Of a stretch of DNA of 64,000 nt, positions 7,192-56,932 are shown in pieces. Under the pieces are notes generated by a model that was not told where the DNA came from, ran no database searches, and saw only the letters and a program-made list of their open reading frames with translations. The stretch covers positions 2,680,586-2,744,585 of the forward strand of contig LJIE01000001.1 of assembly GCA_001281695.1 (NCBI GenBank), written 5' to 3'. The position numbers and the translations under genes were made by a program. The first letter of the stretch is position 1. Each line of letters starts with the position of its first letter. This stretch comes from a bacterium 336/3 (GTDB taxonomy: Bacteria; Bacteroidota; Bacteroidia; Cytophagales; Thermonemataceae).

Positions 7192-7575
7192 TTATTTTTC
7201 TACCACTTTTTGAGCTTTTTTCCATGCTGCTATACCTCCAGAGAGGTTATATACTTTCTTAAATCCTTTTTCTAACATAATTTCTACTGCTGTACTACTT
7301 CTACCACCTGCCTGACAATACACATAATAGGCTTTATTTTTATCTAATTTATCTAAACTAGCAGAAAAGCTCTGTTCACTAATATCTAATAGCTTTGAAT
7401 TTTTCAAATGCCCAGTTTGGTATTCTTCAGGGGTTCTTACATCTAAGATAACTACTCCTGTTGTTTGTGAACCTTTTTCAAATTCTTCTACTGTTAAGTT
7501 TTTAACTTTTTTCTGAGCATTTACACAAAATGTTGTGATAAATGCTACAAACACAAGCAAAAAATATCTTTTCAT
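7192..7575 (-). CDS. Exported rhodanese-like protein
   Basis: 127 residues from the ATG at 7575; a longer reading overlaps the upstream gene and lacks a signal. The N-terminus is a signal peptide (M-K-R-Y-F-L-L-V-F-V-A-F ... V-N-A-Q), so the protein is periplasmic. The rhodanese domain has V-I-L-D-V-R-T-P-E-E-Y and active loop Y-C-Q-A-G-G-R-S. It would carry sulfane sulfur outside the cytoplasm, complementing the cytoplasmic rhodanese encoded next. Confidence 0.88.
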   Translation of the reverse strand: MKRYFLLVFVAFITTFCVNAQKKVKNLTVEEFEKGSQTTGVVILDVRTPEEYQTGHLKNSKLLDISEQSFSASLDKLDKNKAYYVYCQAGGRSSTAVEIMLEKGFKKVYNLSGGIAAWKKAQKVVEK

Positions 7576-7588
7576 ACATAATTTATTT

Positions 7589-9001
7589 TTAAAGTTGAGA
7601 CAGTGTAGAAGTGCAAACAAAATTTGTCTTAGGAATATTGGTTTGTTCAATTGCTTTAAAACCTCCTGCTATATTCACTATATTATGTATACCTCTTGAT
7701 TTCAAAATGGAGGCTGCTATTACAGAACGGTAACCACCAGCACAATGAATATAATTGGTTTTATTTTCTTCAAAATCTACCAAATGTTCATTGATTTGAG
7801 CCAATGGTGCAAAAGTTGCACCTTCTATGTGCTGAGCAGAAAATTCTGAACTCTTTCTTACATCTATTACTTTGGCAGTTTTATCTATTTTGAGTCTTTC
7901 TTCAAATTCTTGAGCTGTGATACTTTCTATCATATCTACGTCTTTTCCAGCATTTTTCCAAGCATTGATGCCTCCTTTCAAATAACCCAACACGTTTTCA
8001 TAACCCACACGAGCCAGACGAGTGATGACCTCTTCTAATTTATCATCTTCTGCAACTATTACTAATGGCTGTTTGATGTCTGTGATGAGTGTTCCCACCC
8101 AAGGGGCAAAATCGCCACTTACTCCAATATTGATAGAACGAGGAATAAAACCTTGTACAAATTCATCTGGTTTTCTGGTATCAAGTACCAAAGCTCCATG
8201 TGCTTCCACAACCATTTCCAACTCTTCAGGATTCAATGGATTTAAAGCTGTATTCATTACCTCATCAAAACTCACATAACCTTTTTTATTTATCATCACA
8301 TTTTGAGGAAAATAATACGGTGGAGGTGCTAATCCATCTAATACTTTTTCAATAAATTCTTCTTTGCTCATCGCTTGAAGGGCATAATTTACTTGTTTTT
8401 GATGCCCTAAAGTATCAAAGGTTTCTTTGCTCATATTTTTTCCACAAGCTGAACCAGCTCCATGAGCAGGGTAAACAATTACCTCATCTGGTAAAACTGT
8501 TAACTTTTTCAAAGATTCGTATAAATGTCCTGCTAAATCCTCCTGACTCAAATCGCTTTTCACAGCCAAATCTGGTCTTCCAACATCTCCAATAAATAAA
8601 GTATCTCCTGTGAATATAGCGTATTCTTTGTCTTGTTCATCAAAAAGCAGATAAGTAGTTGATTCCATCGTATGCCCTGGAGTATGGATCACCTTGATTT
8701 TTGTATTTCCAAGTGTCAAAATTTCCCCATCTTGAGCAATATGTACATCATATTCTGGAAGAGCATTTGTTCCAAACACGATGGTTGCTCCTGTTTTTTT
8801 AGCCAAATCCAAATGTCCTGAAACAAAATCAGCATGGAAATGCGTTTCTAAAACATATTTTATCTTTGCTCCATTCTTTTCTGCTTTCTGGATATAACTT
8901 TCTACTTCTCGTAAAGGATCTATAATAGCTACTTCATTGCCTGATTGAATGTAGTAAGCCCCTTGAGCCAAGCAACCTGTATAAATTTGTTCTACTTTCA
9001 T
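7589..9001 (-). CDS. CstB-like persulfide dioxygenase-rhodanese fusion
   Basis: 470 residues in three domains. 1-240: MBL-fold persulfide dioxygenase with E-T-H54-F-H56-A-D58-F, the H-T-P-G-H110 motif and F-T-G-D133-T, the iron ligands of the ETHE1 family. About 255-355: a rhodanese-like domain (V-L-D-T-R-K-P-D-E-F) whose active loop reads I-V-A-E-D-D with no cysteine. About 360-460: an active rhodanese with H-C420-A-G-G-Y-R-S. This dioxygenase / dead rhodanese / live rhodanese order matches Staphylococcus CstB, which turns persulfides into thiosulfate. Downstream of the sulfite exporter gene by 12 bases. Confidence 0.88.
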   Translation of the reverse strand: MKVEQIYTGCLAQGAYYIQSGNEVAIIDPLREVESYIQKAEKNGAKIKYVLETHFHADFVSGHLDLAKKTGATIVFGTNALPEYDVHIAQDGEILTLGNTKIKVIHTPGHTMESTTYLLFDEQDKEYAIFTGDTLFIGDVGRPDLAVKSDLSQEDLAGHLYESLKKLTVLPDEVIVYPAHGAGSACGKNMSKETFDTLGHQKQVNYALQAMSKEEFIEKVLDGLAPPPYYFPQNVMINKKGYVSFDEVMNTALNPLNPEELEMVVEAHGALVLDTRKPDEFVQGFIPRSINIGVSGDFAPWVGTLITDIKQPLVIVAEDDKLEEVITRLARVGYENVLGYLKGGINAWKNAGKDVDMIESITAQEFEERLKIDKTAKVIDVRKSSEFSAQHIEGATFAPLAQINEHLVDFEENKTNYIHCAGGYRSVIAASILKSRGIHNIVNIAGGFKAIEQTNIPKTNFVCTSTLSQL

Positions 9002-53672: not shown

Positions 53673-53708
53673 AAAGCCCTCATCATTTTGAGGGCTTTTA
53701 TTTTTTGC
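53673..53708 (+). terminator. Intrinsic terminator
   Basis: Stem AAAGCCCTCA / TGAGGGCTTT with a six-base loop, then T-run. Confidence 0.88.
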
Positions 53709-53923: not shown

Positions 53924-54802
53924 TTAAAAATCCCCATAATATACTTGGAAGCAAGGCAAACGGAGTTCGTCTCGCCACATATATACCACTTGGTTTCTAT
54001 CATCCAATACAAATTCAATCATGTATTTGTCTTTAATATAAGTATTGTATATTTCTGTTTTAATGATAGAGTCTTTTCGGGTATCAGCCGTTTTACGCAT
54101 CAAAAGCTCATCGAAATGTACTCCATAACGCTCCAGCCAAGTAAGCGTTTGAGGCTTGTATTGGTCTTCACGAGCCGAAATTAAAAGAATTTTATAGCCA
54201 TTTTTAGCATACTCTTTCAATACACCCAATACAGGCTTGTTGGGCAAATCTTTATCGCAAGTGCTTGCATTATAAGGGTCTCGGTCTTGCATTAAGCAAA
54301 GCGTTCCATCCAAATCGCAGATAATTGCCTTCGGCAAAGCCTCATTTTGCACAGCATAACGAGTTTCATCTTTGATGAAATTTCGATACATCTCACGAAT
54401 CACTTTCTCTCCTACTTTGGCTTTTCCTTCTCGTTTGCTATCATTTTCGATACATTGTTCCAAATAAACCTCCATATCTTTCACTTCTACTTTTACAGAA
54501 TCGTTGTTTTTCTTGTTAAACTCCTGCACCAGCTGATTGATACGAACAATATTCTTTTCAGAAAGGTTGGTATCATCTACAATTACATGTTTTCCATCTT
54601 CCAACGCTTTTATAATCAGCATATCACGCACCTGTTTGATAAATTTTTCGTTTCCTTTGCTTGTATAACCGTTATCAAACATCATTCTCAAATCATCTCG
54701 GTTTATTCTTTTATATGAATTAGGGTTTTGAGCCACCAAATTTTTCGCATAAGTAGATTTTCCACTCCCTGGCAATCCACGCATAATAATTACTTTTTTC
54801 AT
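53924..54802 (-). CDS. T4 Pnkp-like polynucleotide kinase-phosphatase
   Basis: 292 residues from the ATG at 54802; an upstream reading adds 14 residues without homology. It matches phage T4 Pnkp (PseT) across its length. Kinase: Walker A G9-L-P-G-S-G-K-S-T17, catalytic I-N-R-D36-D-L-R39, V-I-V-D-D-T-N. Phosphatase: D163-L-D165-G-T of the HAD family, L-D-D-R-N-Q-V-V, and C-terminal F-Q-V-Y-Y-G-D-F. T4 Pnkp adds a 5' phosphate and removes 3' phosphates so RNA ligase can seal tRNA breaks. Third gene of the cassette, 101 bases after the nucleotidyltransferase gene. Confidence 0.92.
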   Translation of the reverse strand: MKKVIIMRGLPGSGKSTYAKNLVAQNPNSYKRINRDDLRMMFDNGYTSKGNEKFIKQVRDMLIIKALEDGKHVIVDDTNLSEKNIVRINQLVQEFNKKNNDSVKVEVKDMEVYLEQCIENDSKREGKAKVGEKVIREMYRNFIKDETRYAVQNEALPKAIICDLDGTLCLMQDRDPYNASTCDKDLPNKPVLGVLKEYAKNGYKILLISAREDQYKPQTLTWLERYGVHFDELLMRKTADTRKDSIIKTEIYNTYIKDKYMIEFVLDDRNQVVYMWRDELRLPCFQVYYGDF

Positions 54803-54903
54803 TTTACAATTAACATTTATCATTGAACATTTAATAGTGGACAAGCATCATTGAACATTGATAATCGTCCTTTTTCTTTTCTCTCTTCTCTCTTTTCCTA
54901 AAT

Positions 54904-55698
54904 CTAATAATTTACTCCATTCTCCATTGCCTCATAAAACAGTTCCAAATCCATGTATTCAGTTTGTTTAGATAGGTAAATCTTTGTTTTTGAAAGCTCA
55001 CACAAGAAATTATCGAGTTTTTTCTGTTCTTGTGTCTCCATCACCCTGCAAATCTTTTTCTGTTCGAGCATTTGAGTTACTTGTTTACGTATATTTTCGG
55101 CTTTTTCAAGCAGAATGTCTGCTTCACTGGCTTTCTCTTTAAAATTTAAAGTTTTAAAATACTCCAATCGCTCTTTAATTTGCGGATGATTGATTTGTAA
55201 ATCTTTTTTTAAAATTCCTTCTGCAAACAAAACGCCTCTATCTATATGCAAAAGCCTTTTGGCTTGTTCTCTTTCCAAAATAGAAGGAATCAAGTATTTT
55301 CTATCTCTTTTACAAAAACCTGCATAAGCTTTGACTATGTTATAATTATAGAAATTTGTTCGGTTTTCATACAAATATCCCAACACAGAGTTTTTGAGTG
55401 TTTCGGTGTGCAAAGACTCAAAATAAACACTCGAATCGCCAGAGAGAATATTTTGGATGAATGTATAAAGATCTTCAAAAATATAATCTGTGTTACTCGC
55501 TTCATCTTTATACTGCAAAGTATGGTGTAAATCGAGAAAGCTGTGTTGTTTGTTATAGCTTGGCACATAAATACACAACATATCTGTGTCGCTATCAGCG
55601 TTTTTTACACCATACAAAGCAGAACCTACTTCTATTTCTACAAGTGTCGCTTTTTGAAGCGTTTCTAATAATTCAGTATTTTTAAAGTGAATATTCAT
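54904..55698 (-). CDS. Minimal nucleotidyltransferase (YcgL/COG3541-like)
   Basis: 264 residues. The polymerase-beta-type motif is V-G-S-A-L-Y-G-V-K-N-A-D-S-D-T-D-M-L-C (about 22-40), with the catalytic D-x-D and a Gly-Ser turn; further acidic residues follow in the first 90 residues. The C-terminal half is helical and charged. YcgL-type proteins are predicted nucleotidyltransferases of unknown substrate. Between an RNA ligase and a Pnkp gene, it may add or modify nucleotides at RNA ends (inference). Six bases separate it from the ligase gene. Confidence 0.8.
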   Translation of the reverse strand: MNIHFKNTELLETLQKATLVEIEVGSALYGVKNADSDTDMLCIYVPSYNKQHSFLDLHHTLQYKDEASNTDYIFEDLYTFIQNILSGDSSVYFESLHTETLKNSVLGYLYENRTNFYNYNIVKAYAGFCKRDRKYLIPSILEREQAKRLLHIDRGVLFAEGILKKDLQINHPQIKERLEYFKTLNFKEKASEADILLEKAENIRKQVTQMLEQKKICRVMETQEQKKLDNFLCELSKTKIYLSKQTEYMDLELFYEAMENGVNY

Positions 55699-55704
55699 AG
55701 TTTT

Positions 55705-56727
55705 TTATTCGTAAATATTGAGAGCAAAAGCCTTTTGAAACTCTGGACGAATCATTTTCCAGATAATCGGTGCATAATTGTTTTTATCAAGCATCGAAAA
55801 CAAAACAGAAGGATATTTACAAGTCATAAAGTACAAGGCAGTTTCTTTACGAGACTCCAATACTTTAAAGTCTTTCAAACACTGATTTTCAATTTCTTTG
55901 AAGGAAGTATTTAATTCGTCCACTGTTTTCTTCACCCAATCGTAGAATTCATCTGGCACTCGGTCTAAAATTTCATCAAACGACTGGTTTTCTTTCATGT
56001 ACTCCCAAATATTAATCGTTGAAACTCGTGTAACCAATCGGTGCAAACGCAAATATTCCTCAAACTTAATTTTATAACGCAAGCCGTTTGCAAATTTCAC
56101 CACAAAACCCTCTTTGTTTACTTCTTCCAATTCTTTGAGTGTCGTTATATCTTTAATTCCATGATATTTCTTTACAATCGGGAAACCAATAGCCTCCAAA
56201 GGCAAATCTAAACCAGTTTCATTATCAATAATTGCCAAAAGCACCAATTCTTCCATATCTCCATAATCTACCACAATTCGGTTCTGAGGATAAATAATCT
56301 CAAACAAGTAAGTTTTACCTTTTTCTAATTTATTCAAAGCGTGTTTGTATTTGGAGTATAAAAGTTCGTTGGCTTTATCTGATTGCTCACTTGCAAACGA
56401 CCCTCTTGATGCCATAAAAGGCTTATCTTCTATCCAGTACAAAATACCCAAAGAACCATCCATTTTTTCAAATACTTCAAAAGGCTCGTTTGGTAACACT
56501 TGGTTTTCTTGCTCCCCAAGATTAAAAAACTTACCGAAAGGACGAGCTACTATTTCATAGTTTTCGTTCAAGATTAAACCTCTGCAAGCAAGTGTTACTT
56601 CATTCCAAACTCTTTCGTACTGAACTGTTGGTGAGTAATTATAGATATACAAATTGTGTTCAGGGTGGCGTTGTACCTCCAAATAACCTGCTTCAAGCAT
56701 CTGATTTAATAACTCTATATTTTTCAT
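55705..56727 (-). CDS. T4 Rnl1-like RNA ligase
   Basis: 340 residues. Nucleotidyltransferase motifs in order: E-K88-M-D-G-S (motif I, adenylated lysine), C-R-G-L-I-L upstream, Y-L-F-E-I-I-Y-P (motif III), E-G-F-V-V-K-F (motif IV) and Y-K-I-K-F-E-E-Y (motif V). A C-terminal helical domain of about 100 residues resembles the tRNA-specific region of T4 Rnl1 (374 residues). It seals 3'-OH/5'-phosphate RNA ends. First gene of the cassette, downstream of a 10-bp inverted repeat. Confidence 0.9.
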   Translation of the reverse strand: MKNIELLNQMLEAGYLEVQRHPEHNLYIYNYSPTVQYERVWNEVTLACRGLILNENYEIVARPFGKFFNLGEQENQVLPNEPFEVFEKMDGSLGILYWIEDKPFMASRGSFASEQSDKANELLYSKYKHALNKLEKGKTYLFEIIYPQNRIVVDYGDMEELVLLAIIDNETGLDLPLEAIGFPIVKKYHGIKDITTLKELEEVNKEGFVVKFANGLRYKIKFEEYLRLHRLVTRVSTINIWEYMKENQSFDEILDRVPDEFYDWVKKTVDELNTSFKEIENQCLKDFKVLESRKETALYFMTCKYPSVLFSMLDKNNYAPIIWKMIRPEFQKAFALNIYE

Positions 56728-56769: not shown

Positions 56770-56804
56770 CAAATACATAATTACGCATTCAAATTGCGTA
56801 ATTA
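56770..56804 (-). promoter_or_regulatory. Inverted-repeat operator candidate upstream of RNA ligase
   Basis: TAATTACGCA (56778-56787) and TGCGTAATTA (56795-56804) form a perfect dyad with a seven-base spacer, 51 bases from the ligase ATG. Immediately downstream on the minus strand is TGTATTTG (56770-56777), one mismatch from TAnnTTTG. The dyad would occupy the promoter spacer and -33 region, the usual place for a repressor or activator site. Confidence 0.6.
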
Positions 56805-56875
56805 AAATATTTTTTATAAAAGTTTAAAATATTTGTGATAGTACCTTGAAAATACACTTTTTTGAGATCTAAGCA

Positions 56876-56914
56876 TAAAAAAAGGAGAGACTTTATAGTC
56901 TCTCCTTTTTTTAT
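56876..56914. terminator. Intrinsic terminator of the fasciclin gene
   Basis: Perfect 12-bp stem AAAGGAGAGACT / AGTCTCTCCTTT with TTAT loop, A-run left and T-run right, so usable both ways. Confidence 0.9.
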
Positions 56915-56932
56915 GTTTATATTTTTTTGTGA

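Follow-up and report, generated by a model that had tools for sequence, protein, structure and literature searches.

The bacterium 336/3 carries, within the 64,000-nucleotide stretch analysed here (the window; positions 2,680,586-2,744,585 of contig C1 in a genome, G000, of 4.71 Mb), three adjacent genes for a T4-type RNA ligase (Rnl1), a small nucleotidyltransferase (NTase) and a polynucleotide kinase-phosphatase (Pnkp). Judged by their sequences, the three serve to rejoin broken RNA in bacteria and add a new member to the known RNA-repair cassettes. The novel part lies around them: a perfect palindrome ahead of the ligase gene, and a distant operon that carries the same palindrome in front of an array of interrupted tRNA-like units. 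Neither was mentioned in the preliminary description of this DNA. We read the cassette as probably an inducible operon for the repair of RNA, most likely tRNA, belonging to a palindrome-marked regulon whose second arm would supply tRNA mimics. The features are collected in Table 1, where loci (L), genomes (G) and contigs (C) bear working numbers and L269 is the locus of the distant operon.

Table 1. Positions of the cassette, its putative control elements and the linked RNA operon (window coordinates unless a locus is given)
Feature	Position	Strand	Basis or remark
Rnl1-type ligase (T4 type), 340 aa	55705..56727	minus	Pfam, PHROGs, alignment to 2c5u
NTase, short Pol-beta type, divergent RlaP family, 264 aa; NTase domain plus helical bundle	54904..55698	minus	Pfam, profiles, AlphaFold2
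Pnkp, T4-type 5'-kinase/3'-phosphatase, 292 aa from the likely ATG	53924..54802	minus	Pfam, PDB alignment
Perfect palindrome TAATTACGCA-N7-TGCGTAATTA, putative operator	56778..56804	strandless	50 bases from the Rnl1 start codon
Terminator-like hairpin between the upstream fasciclin gene and the cassette	56872..56917	strandless	
Terminator-like hairpin past Pnkp, two-way	53673..53698	strandless	convergent 125-aa open reading frame
tRNA-like array, four units, eight GGTCAA-N7-TTACTYC modules	L269:7150-8000 (G000:C1:2133149-2133999)		before the RING-type gene
tRNA-like units of L269	about 7252-7373, 7451-7575, 7592-7711, 7781-7910		
NTd family examples	L269:10323-11890; L023:5221-5961; L102:824-1540		FGSxxSxDxD-type motif

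The three-gene cassette

In the open reading frame (ORF) listing the genes follow one another on the minus strand as Rnl1, NTase and Pnkp. The NTase frame begins six bases past the ligase stop, and Pnkp, counted from its ATG, starts 101 bases past the NTase stop. Since terminator-like hairpins stand at both ends, the cassette looks like a single transcription unit. The ligase scores 72.2 bits against Pfam RNA_lig_T4_1 (E 7.5e-20, cut-off 28.3) and reaches 7.7e-73 against the PHROGs T4-type ligase. Its segments KMDGS, FEIIYPQNRIV, KEGFVVKF and YKIKFEEY, which we take to be ligase motifs I, III, IV and V, all align with T4 Rnl1 (2c5u). Against the NCBIfam equivalog model of T4 RnlA (TIGR02308) it obtains 92.7 bits, under the cut-off of 242.25, and it is therefore a relative of T4 RnlA and not its equivalog. 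Pnkp matches Pfam HAD_PNKP (1.5e-47) and AAA_33 (3.1e-19) as well as the PHROGs polynucleotide kinase (3.6e-89); among PDB sequences it matches, over both domains, Pnkp1 (4.8e-64), its closest solved relative by sequence, and T4 Pnkp (1.2e-40). The alignment with Pnkp1 (4xrp) takes in GLPGSGKS, NRDDLR, DLDGT, LDDRN and the GDF tail, and in alignment with the T4 proteins both enzymes retain the active-site residues, meaning those that we assume to be catalytic. The listed Pnkp frame opens at a TTG (54844); the ATG at 54802 is the likelier start, because residue 1 of T4 Pnkp aligns to residue 15 of the ORF. A PADLOC search returned two matches, at 3.5e-4 and 8.9e-4.

The middle protein is, by its profile matches, a short and divergent RlaP. 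It lies just over the threshold of Pfam RlaP (PF10127, 'RNA repair pathway DNA polymerase beta family'; E 2.6e-6, 27.7 bits, cut-off 23) and matches the PHROGs NTase at 6e-17, while its profile meets those of two longer RlaP groups at 2.3e-7 and 1.6e-5. The subfamily members that were read span 217-283 aa. Residues G25, S26, D37, D39 and D71, forming the Pol-beta pattern G-S...D-x-D with a third acidic residue, are invariant across nine family members. A search of PDB sequences with the NTase profile gave no meaningful match. As far as the relevant passages of the literature go, the distribution of RlaP in jumbo phages mirrors that of RNA ligases, and the prediction for the protein is that it puts back missing nucleotides ahead of ligation (PMC7824862, citing Burroughs and Aravind 2016); the family also occurs across several counter-RNase repair systems (PMC6514570). 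The window NTase resembles this family in passing the Pfam cut-off, in the position of its gene beside an RNA ligase and in the nucleotide restoration predicted for it, and differs in being shorter and in its 18-22% identity to the two longer RlaPs that were aligned. Since the NTase belongs to RlaP, the cassette adds a new example to a known kind, and its added end-restoring step is one already predicted in print.

The preliminary description had named a complete T4 Rnl1-like ligase, an NTase six bases after it and a full Pnkp with kinase and phosphatase sites down to the GDF tail, all of which the family matches, ORF coordinates and alignments bear out. It had called the NTase YcgL-type and its role the open question; the protein is by family a nucleotidyltransferase, although the YcgL label was loose, and for RlaP the role had been predicted before.

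The AlphaFold2 model of the NTase (pLDDT 87.3) has as its nearest PDB folds the Hailong NTase HalB (Z 8.8, root-mean-square deviation 4.0 over 165 residues) and antibiotic nucleotidyltransferases (ANT), little above background, and its helical half resembles HEPN bundles (Z about 8), possibly a common arrangement. Such modelled likenesses would suit a regulator or a signalling enzyme, active in protein modification or in HalB-like oligonucleotide synthesis and not in restoring ends. We hold this to be unlikely: Z-scores of this size are close to what common arrangements give, the gene stands between those of the ligase and the kinase-phosphatase, and the sequence relatives are RlaP.

A palindrome shared with an operon of tRNA-like RNAs

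The 21-base core of the palindrome, TTACGCA-N7-TGCGTAA, lies at 56781-56801, 53 bases from the Rnl1 gene. It has two exact sites in the 4.7 Mb of the own genome, one before Rnl1 and the other before the array operon, at C1:2,133,128-2,133,148 (L269:7129-7149), 604 kb from the cassette. When up to two mismatches are allowed the genome yields 12 matches against 14 for a reversed control, so that only the exact sites stand out. For a wider view, palindrome variants (xxxCGCA-N7-TGCGxxx with at least two of the three outer pairs kept) were counted in the loci of the best 80 of 142 confirmed ligase relatives from a scan of named genomes. These loci are mostly from Flavobacterium, Saprospiraceae and Cytophagales and span up to 6 kb per side; some end at contig ends and some rows come from metagenome bins. 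Their 927,252 bases hold 84 variants, against 2, 3, 0, 2 and 1 in five shuffles; eleven cores of the same composition give 0-4 and other spacers 0-4, except that a spacer of 6 gives 14. The counts are not independent, because many of the 80 loci are from Flavobacterium. In 26 of the 80 a variant stands no more than 400 bp ahead of Rnl1, and such sites are seen also in Saprospiraceae, Emticicia, Arcicella, Cyclobacteriaceae and Bernardetiaceae. Their placing is fairly regular, 17 of 28 starting 55-65 bases ahead of the ORF; by the same measure the window's distance is 74. Elsewhere in various ligase loci variants precede Hen1, the array, a WYL gene or the gene of an NTase-fold family called NTd here.

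Behind the second exact palindrome come about 850 bases without a listed ORF of at least 50 aa, then the gene of a 758-aa RING-type protein and those of two NTd proteins. The RING-type protein is about 66% identical to the protein encoded upstream of Rnl1 in Flavobacterium; its match to NCBIfam RING_SCO0854 (2e-39) is below cut-off, and it shows no match to Ro60 in PDB sequences (E 0.1) or to TROVE in Pfam (E 1). For NTd no Pfam family scores above cut-off. Its model (pLDDT 92.3) has NTases in the first 19 PDB fold rows, the best at E 2.7e-3 and none below 0.001, so that the fold ranks with the NTases, although a sequence relationship to RlaP found no support, there being no profile match. NTd is found near Rnl1 in 20 of the 80 loci, and also in a viral contig carrying an NTase of the window type. 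In Flavobacterium the array and the RING-type gene lie close to NTd, Rnl1 and Pnkp, and in 18 loci they precede Rnl1. The two arms are thus linked by gene order in Flavobacterium and by the palindrome in 336/3. A YCII-domain gene and a sigma-factor gene (L269:5428-7027) diverge from the second palindrome at a distance of about 100 bases, and with this pair so close the palindrome could serve it instead.

The own genome also has a second, longer RlaP (L017:7097-9306; C1 about 1.713-1.714 Mb) with a divergent WYL gene beside it. The WYL protein falls into the same cluster as the WYL genes of 28 of the 80 ligase loci, and is the obvious candidate for a regulator that probably binds the palindrome.

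By inspection, each of the four units of the array has acceptor, D and T arms, and an anticodon arm interrupted by a hairpin with ATTAYC...GGTCAA-N7-TTACTTC. The module recurs permuted between the units, so that there are eight copies in total, one of them with TTACTCC. Two units pass the Rfam tRNA model (RF00005, cut-off 29) with 48.2 and 45.6 bits, and the other two are unlisted at E 1; ARAGORN calls no tRNA in L269. The same model gives 15 matches, spanning 109-155 nt, in 11 of 14 other sources. No Rfam family other than tRNA scores above cut-off for the array, the YrlA-type Y RNA model (RF02553) reaching 23.2 bits under a cut-off of 69. Wherever DNA upstream of a Flavobacterium RING-type gene was available, 18 cases in all, it holds 4-7 exact motifs together with one or two palindromes. 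The interrupted tRNA-like form was seen in the 15 Flavobacterium arrays that were aligned, and an uninterrupted anticodon arm is not kept: the insert is present in the four L269 units and in 15 aligned Flavobacterium units. Of 269 loci, 20 contain the motif, namely 18 from Flavobacterium and two overlapping ones from the own genome; in the window it was not found.

Does the array form the structure that was drawn for it? The 15 aligned Flavobacterium arrays were set against a named structure of 56 pairs (tRNA arms plus module helices), and 96.7% of the cells are paired, a figure that is favoured because the structure was drawn from one of the 15 rows. A stronger sign is that eight pairs have changed on both sides, against 2.6 when shuffled. 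The covariation score was reached by none of 500 shuffles and the number of further pair types by 14 of 500, and a structure slid by 1-3 columns retained 31-49% paired cells and 0-1 pairs changed on both sides. Helices 9 and 10 give examples of such changes, from U-A to C-G and from A-U to G-C. One pair of module helix 1 is broken in 13 of the 15 rows. Covariation thus supports an RNA structure for the array, which by its sequence may be a new class of noncoding RNA. No description of it was found in the titles and abstracts of the open-licence literature, which is weak evidence of novelty.

Could the units be genuine pre-tRNAs, their inserts excised and their halves joined by Rnl1 and Pnkp in a bacterial protein-based splicing? 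When the insert is removed from the Flavobacterium unit, a continuous 5-bp anticodon stem is left, with GG plus ACA opposite TGTCC. Helices 4 and 6 are paired in 100% and 97.8% of cells, a pairing without covariation in the anticodon stem, where four of the five pairs are constant and the only change in the fifth breaks the pair. The acceptor, D and T arms look canonical, and the Flavobacterium operon encodes a ligase. However, the anticodon stem also forms with the insert retained as a side hairpin, so that no cut is required for the tRNA-like fold. Moreover, two of the four own-genome units, with inserts near the anticodon loop, show on inspection no clean 7-base loop, and 24 genomes have arrays without an Rnl1 match. 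Splicing in this sense appears quite improbable to us. A more general proposal can be put forward tentatively, at somewhat less than even chances: that this is an undescribed RNA-repair regulon of Bacteroidota, in which interrupted tRNA-like arrays with a GGUCAA-N7-UUACUUC hairpin module partner Rnl1, Pnkp and several NTases, either as decoys baiting anticodon nucleases or as pre-split tRNAs for the ligase to join. If true, its pre-split variant would mean that bacteria splice or rebuild tRNAs by means of proteins.

Distribution, and the case for a joint regulon

In the 80 ligase loci Pnkp is present in 60, and directly after Rnl1 (less than 300 bp) in 32; an NTase from any of four clusters is present in 33, Hen1 in 19, a PNKP-type ligase in 19 and the WYL regulator in 28. 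Of 390 genomes from the order to which the window belongs, seven have the window-type NTase, 31 have Rnl1 (some by weak matches) and six have both. Rnl1 is thus found in 6/7 NTase-positive and 25/383 NTase-negative genomes (Fisher p = 1e-6, uncorrected for relatedness). The two genes adjoin in the own genome, G031, G046 and G056. In G515 they are on different contigs, in G525 a phage-like contig carries the NTase close to a broken ligase, and in G005 (81% complete) the NTase is present and Rnl1 was not found. Two Taibaiella loci (L050 and L055) are more crowded, Rnl1 standing there amid two types of RlaP, the window-type NTase, two proteins of the Pnkp cluster, Hen1 and a PNKP-type ligase; L050 has in addition NTd and a PF01909 NTase near Rnl1. 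In seven of the 80 loci (L052, L058, L059, L070, L074 and others) there is also a protein that we read as slipin/band-7-like.

Arrays were surveyed in 343 genomes of the order, the Rnl1 genome G767 being left out. At least one motif is present in 87 and two or more on one strand in 40, or 37 after three scattered cases were dropped; of these 37, 29 were seen to be clustered and eight judged by strand count only. A reversed control motif reached two or more per strand in nine genomes. Among 20 loci fetched, the RING-type gene is on the same strand in 8/8 with several motifs and in 1/12 with a single one, and three of the eight multi-motif loci outside Flavobacterium (L282, L284 and L285) have the palindrome. 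With relatedness uncorrected, arrays are commoner in Rnl1 genomes (13/30 vs 24/313, p = 1e-6) and in those that have the window-type NTase (6/7 vs 31/336, p = 7e-6; 5/6 without the own genome). In genus g25 multi-motif arrays stand beside the RING-type gene (L288 in G525:C34, L291 in G028, L292 in G489), and the members searched had no Rnl1 except on the phage-like contig of G525; these arrays may serve other enzymes. Eleven viral stretches match a gapped form of the pattern. They were taken as chance, because none has more than one motif and the seven scanned with ARAGORN yielded no tRNA.

Several of the counts weigh against a joint regulon. A palindrome variant within 400 bp upstream of Rnl1 is missing from 54 of the 80 ligase loci. 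Among cassettes with the window-type NTase, a site precedes Rnl1 in the window and in L047 (= L008), and none does in L009, L054 (= L010), L050 and L055. The tie to the WYL protein is partial: a palindrome occurs anywhere in 24/28 WYL loci and in 24/52 others, and none was found between the WYL gene and the longer RlaP in L017, either on reading the intergenic stretch or in a 27-base search with up to three mismatches, which would miss a diverged variant. Five of the eight multi-motif loci lack a detected palindrome, one of them being cut by a contig end. Arrays are present without Rnl1 in 24 of the 37 array genomes, and 17 of 30 Rnl1 genomes are without a multi-copy array; the array therefore has an existence of its own apart from the ligase. 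The window-type NTase is itself rare, in 4/80 ligase loci and, among 395 genomes of the phylum, in the own genome only. A stricter table, which omits the own genome, one of two congeners and the phage-like contig and counts only strong Rnl1 matches, brings its association with Rnl1 down to 3/4 vs 18/383 (p = 5e-4, again uncorrected). Finally, no nuclease was recognised adjoining the cassette. For a PrrC or RloC partner we looked to Pfam AAA_13, presumably the family of that type, all matches to which in the own genome are below cut-off.

A simpler account would take the locus for an ordinary RlaP-type repair cassette, with a palindrome that matches that of the tRNA-like operon by coincidence or as a general stress operator, and with no joint pathway. 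RlaP is, in the passages cited above, an RNA-ligase-associated NTase already; arrays do occur in 24 genomes without an Rnl1 match; and the site before Rnl1 is absent in 4/6 of the other locus rows with the window-type NTase. This account is nonetheless rather doubtful. The two exact sites in 4.7 Mb fall one to each operon; the Flavobacterium neighbourhood brings together the array, RING-type gene, NTd, Rnl1 and Pnkp, and in various loci sites precede the array, NTd, Rnl1 and Hen1; and the 84 variants compare with 0-3 in shuffles. The joint regulon remains the reading that we think probable.

How might such a regulon work? Damage to tRNA would raise the expression of the repair operons, probably through a WYL-domain regulator bound to the palindromic operator (core TACGCA-N7-TGCGTA and close variants). 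Pnkp would then heal the 2',3'-cyclic-phosphate and 5'-OH ends made by ribonucleases, the RlaP-type NTase would add one or more nucleotides back at the healed 3'-OH end ahead of sealing, and Rnl1 would seal the repaired ends. The second arm would contribute a tRNA-like RNA leader with its anticodon-arm hairpin, the RING-type protein and two more proteins with an NTase fold. Most likely the tRNA mimics would be decoys or sentinels for anticodon nucleases, or else binding platforms for repair proteins.

Three known systems invite comparison. The tRNA repair of phage T4 uses the same two enzymes, Rnl1 and Pnkp, with conserved active sites; the cassette differs from it in being chromosomal, in its adjacent genes, in the extra NTase and the palindromic putative operator, and in having AAA_13 matches only below cut-off. 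The Pnkp1-Rnl-Hen1 complex of Capnocytophaga, the source of the Pnkp1 that is the closest solved relative of the window Pnkp, has, as far as its description in PMC4411300 goes, a ligase similar to the Pnkp ligase domain and partnered by Hen1, whereas the window has Rnl1 and an NTase. No Hen1 is among the genes beside the cassette, the rest of the own genome not having been searched for it; in many Flavobacterium loci the Rnl1 set and the Hen1/PNKP-type ligase set stand together. The third system, rsr-yrlBA-rtcBA of Salmonella, likewise combines ligase-based RNA repair with a noncoding RNA that has a tRNA-like domain and with dedicated regulation, and in the part of the paper that treats it the authors raise a competitive-inhibitor role for the tRNA-like domain of YrlA (PMC7790460). 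As described there, it relies on RtcB and RtcA, on Ro60/Rsr and on RtcR, in place of which we find Rnl1 and Pnkp in the cassette, apparently a RING-type protein, and the palindrome with WYL neighbours; the tRNA-likes of the window genome also have the anticodon-arm insert and a repeated motif. The regulon is not filed as a member of this group, because its RNA does not pass the YrlA model, its cassette has another ligase and its regulator is probably another one too. We would see it, by analogy of presumed function, as an Rnl1/Pnkp counterpart of the Y RNA/RtcB operon. With a ligase, a healing enzyme, several NTases and tRNA-like RNAs of its own in operons marked by a shared palindrome, the locus points to a natural test bed for RlaP-type NTases. 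Should the tRNA mimics turn out to be decoys, sensors or substrates, they would tie tRNA damage to repair in many Bacteroidota and offer a compact experimental handle on NTase action.

Origin of the cassette

In a quick tree of 94 ligases, thinned from 80 viral and 80 bacterial loci, the smallest starred set around the window ligase has 22 rows: the window and 21 from bacterial genome contigs, with no viral row, the neighbour being a Flavobacterium ligase of 67% identity. There is no clean split, as 10 of the 50 viral rows fall inside a 54-row starred set that holds all 43 bacterial rows. Ligases from viral contigs reach 56% identity to that of the window, and the best-ranked phage records listed reach 39.5%, against up to 67-68% for chromosomal Flavobacterium ligases. 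Among 50,697 phage records, T4-type ligases are found in 1918 and Pnkps in 3080. The window-type NTase is present in four phage records (three phages) and four viral contigs; all three phages also match Rnl1 (E 1.2e-8 to 1.8e-66), and the four viral contigs, which may be fragments, show no Rnl1-like match.

A recent capture of a phage counter-defence module could be argued from the many phages with such ligases and Pnkps, from the viral rows and the 56% identity among ligases, and from the NTases in phages and viral contigs. The tree and the identities led us to reject it as the main reading, the closer ligases being chromosomal, and none of the 80 viral ligases kept has a palindrome variant within 400 bp upstream; we give it very little credence. 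The cassette is better read, on its ligase relationships, as a chromosomal resident in Bacteroidota that has been exchanged to some extent with phages, and the grouping with bacterial contigs upholds the preliminary view of a chromosomal RNA-repair operon with T4-like ligase, Pnkp and an extra NTase. That the three genes should recur together proved true in part: Pnkp accompanies the ligase and Rnl1 the NTase in the proportions given above, whereas NTases of this type are scarce around ligases. In three congeners and one other family member, a homologue of the 1097-aa neighbour gene is present with flanks (9.4-14.5 kb) unlike those of the window, so that gain or loss of the cassette could not be dated. 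Rnl1 genes with stop codons or split frames occur in L070:5941-7014, G027:C5:56781-57785 and G525:C18:37938-38909, and the ligase is thus sometimes lost by decay.

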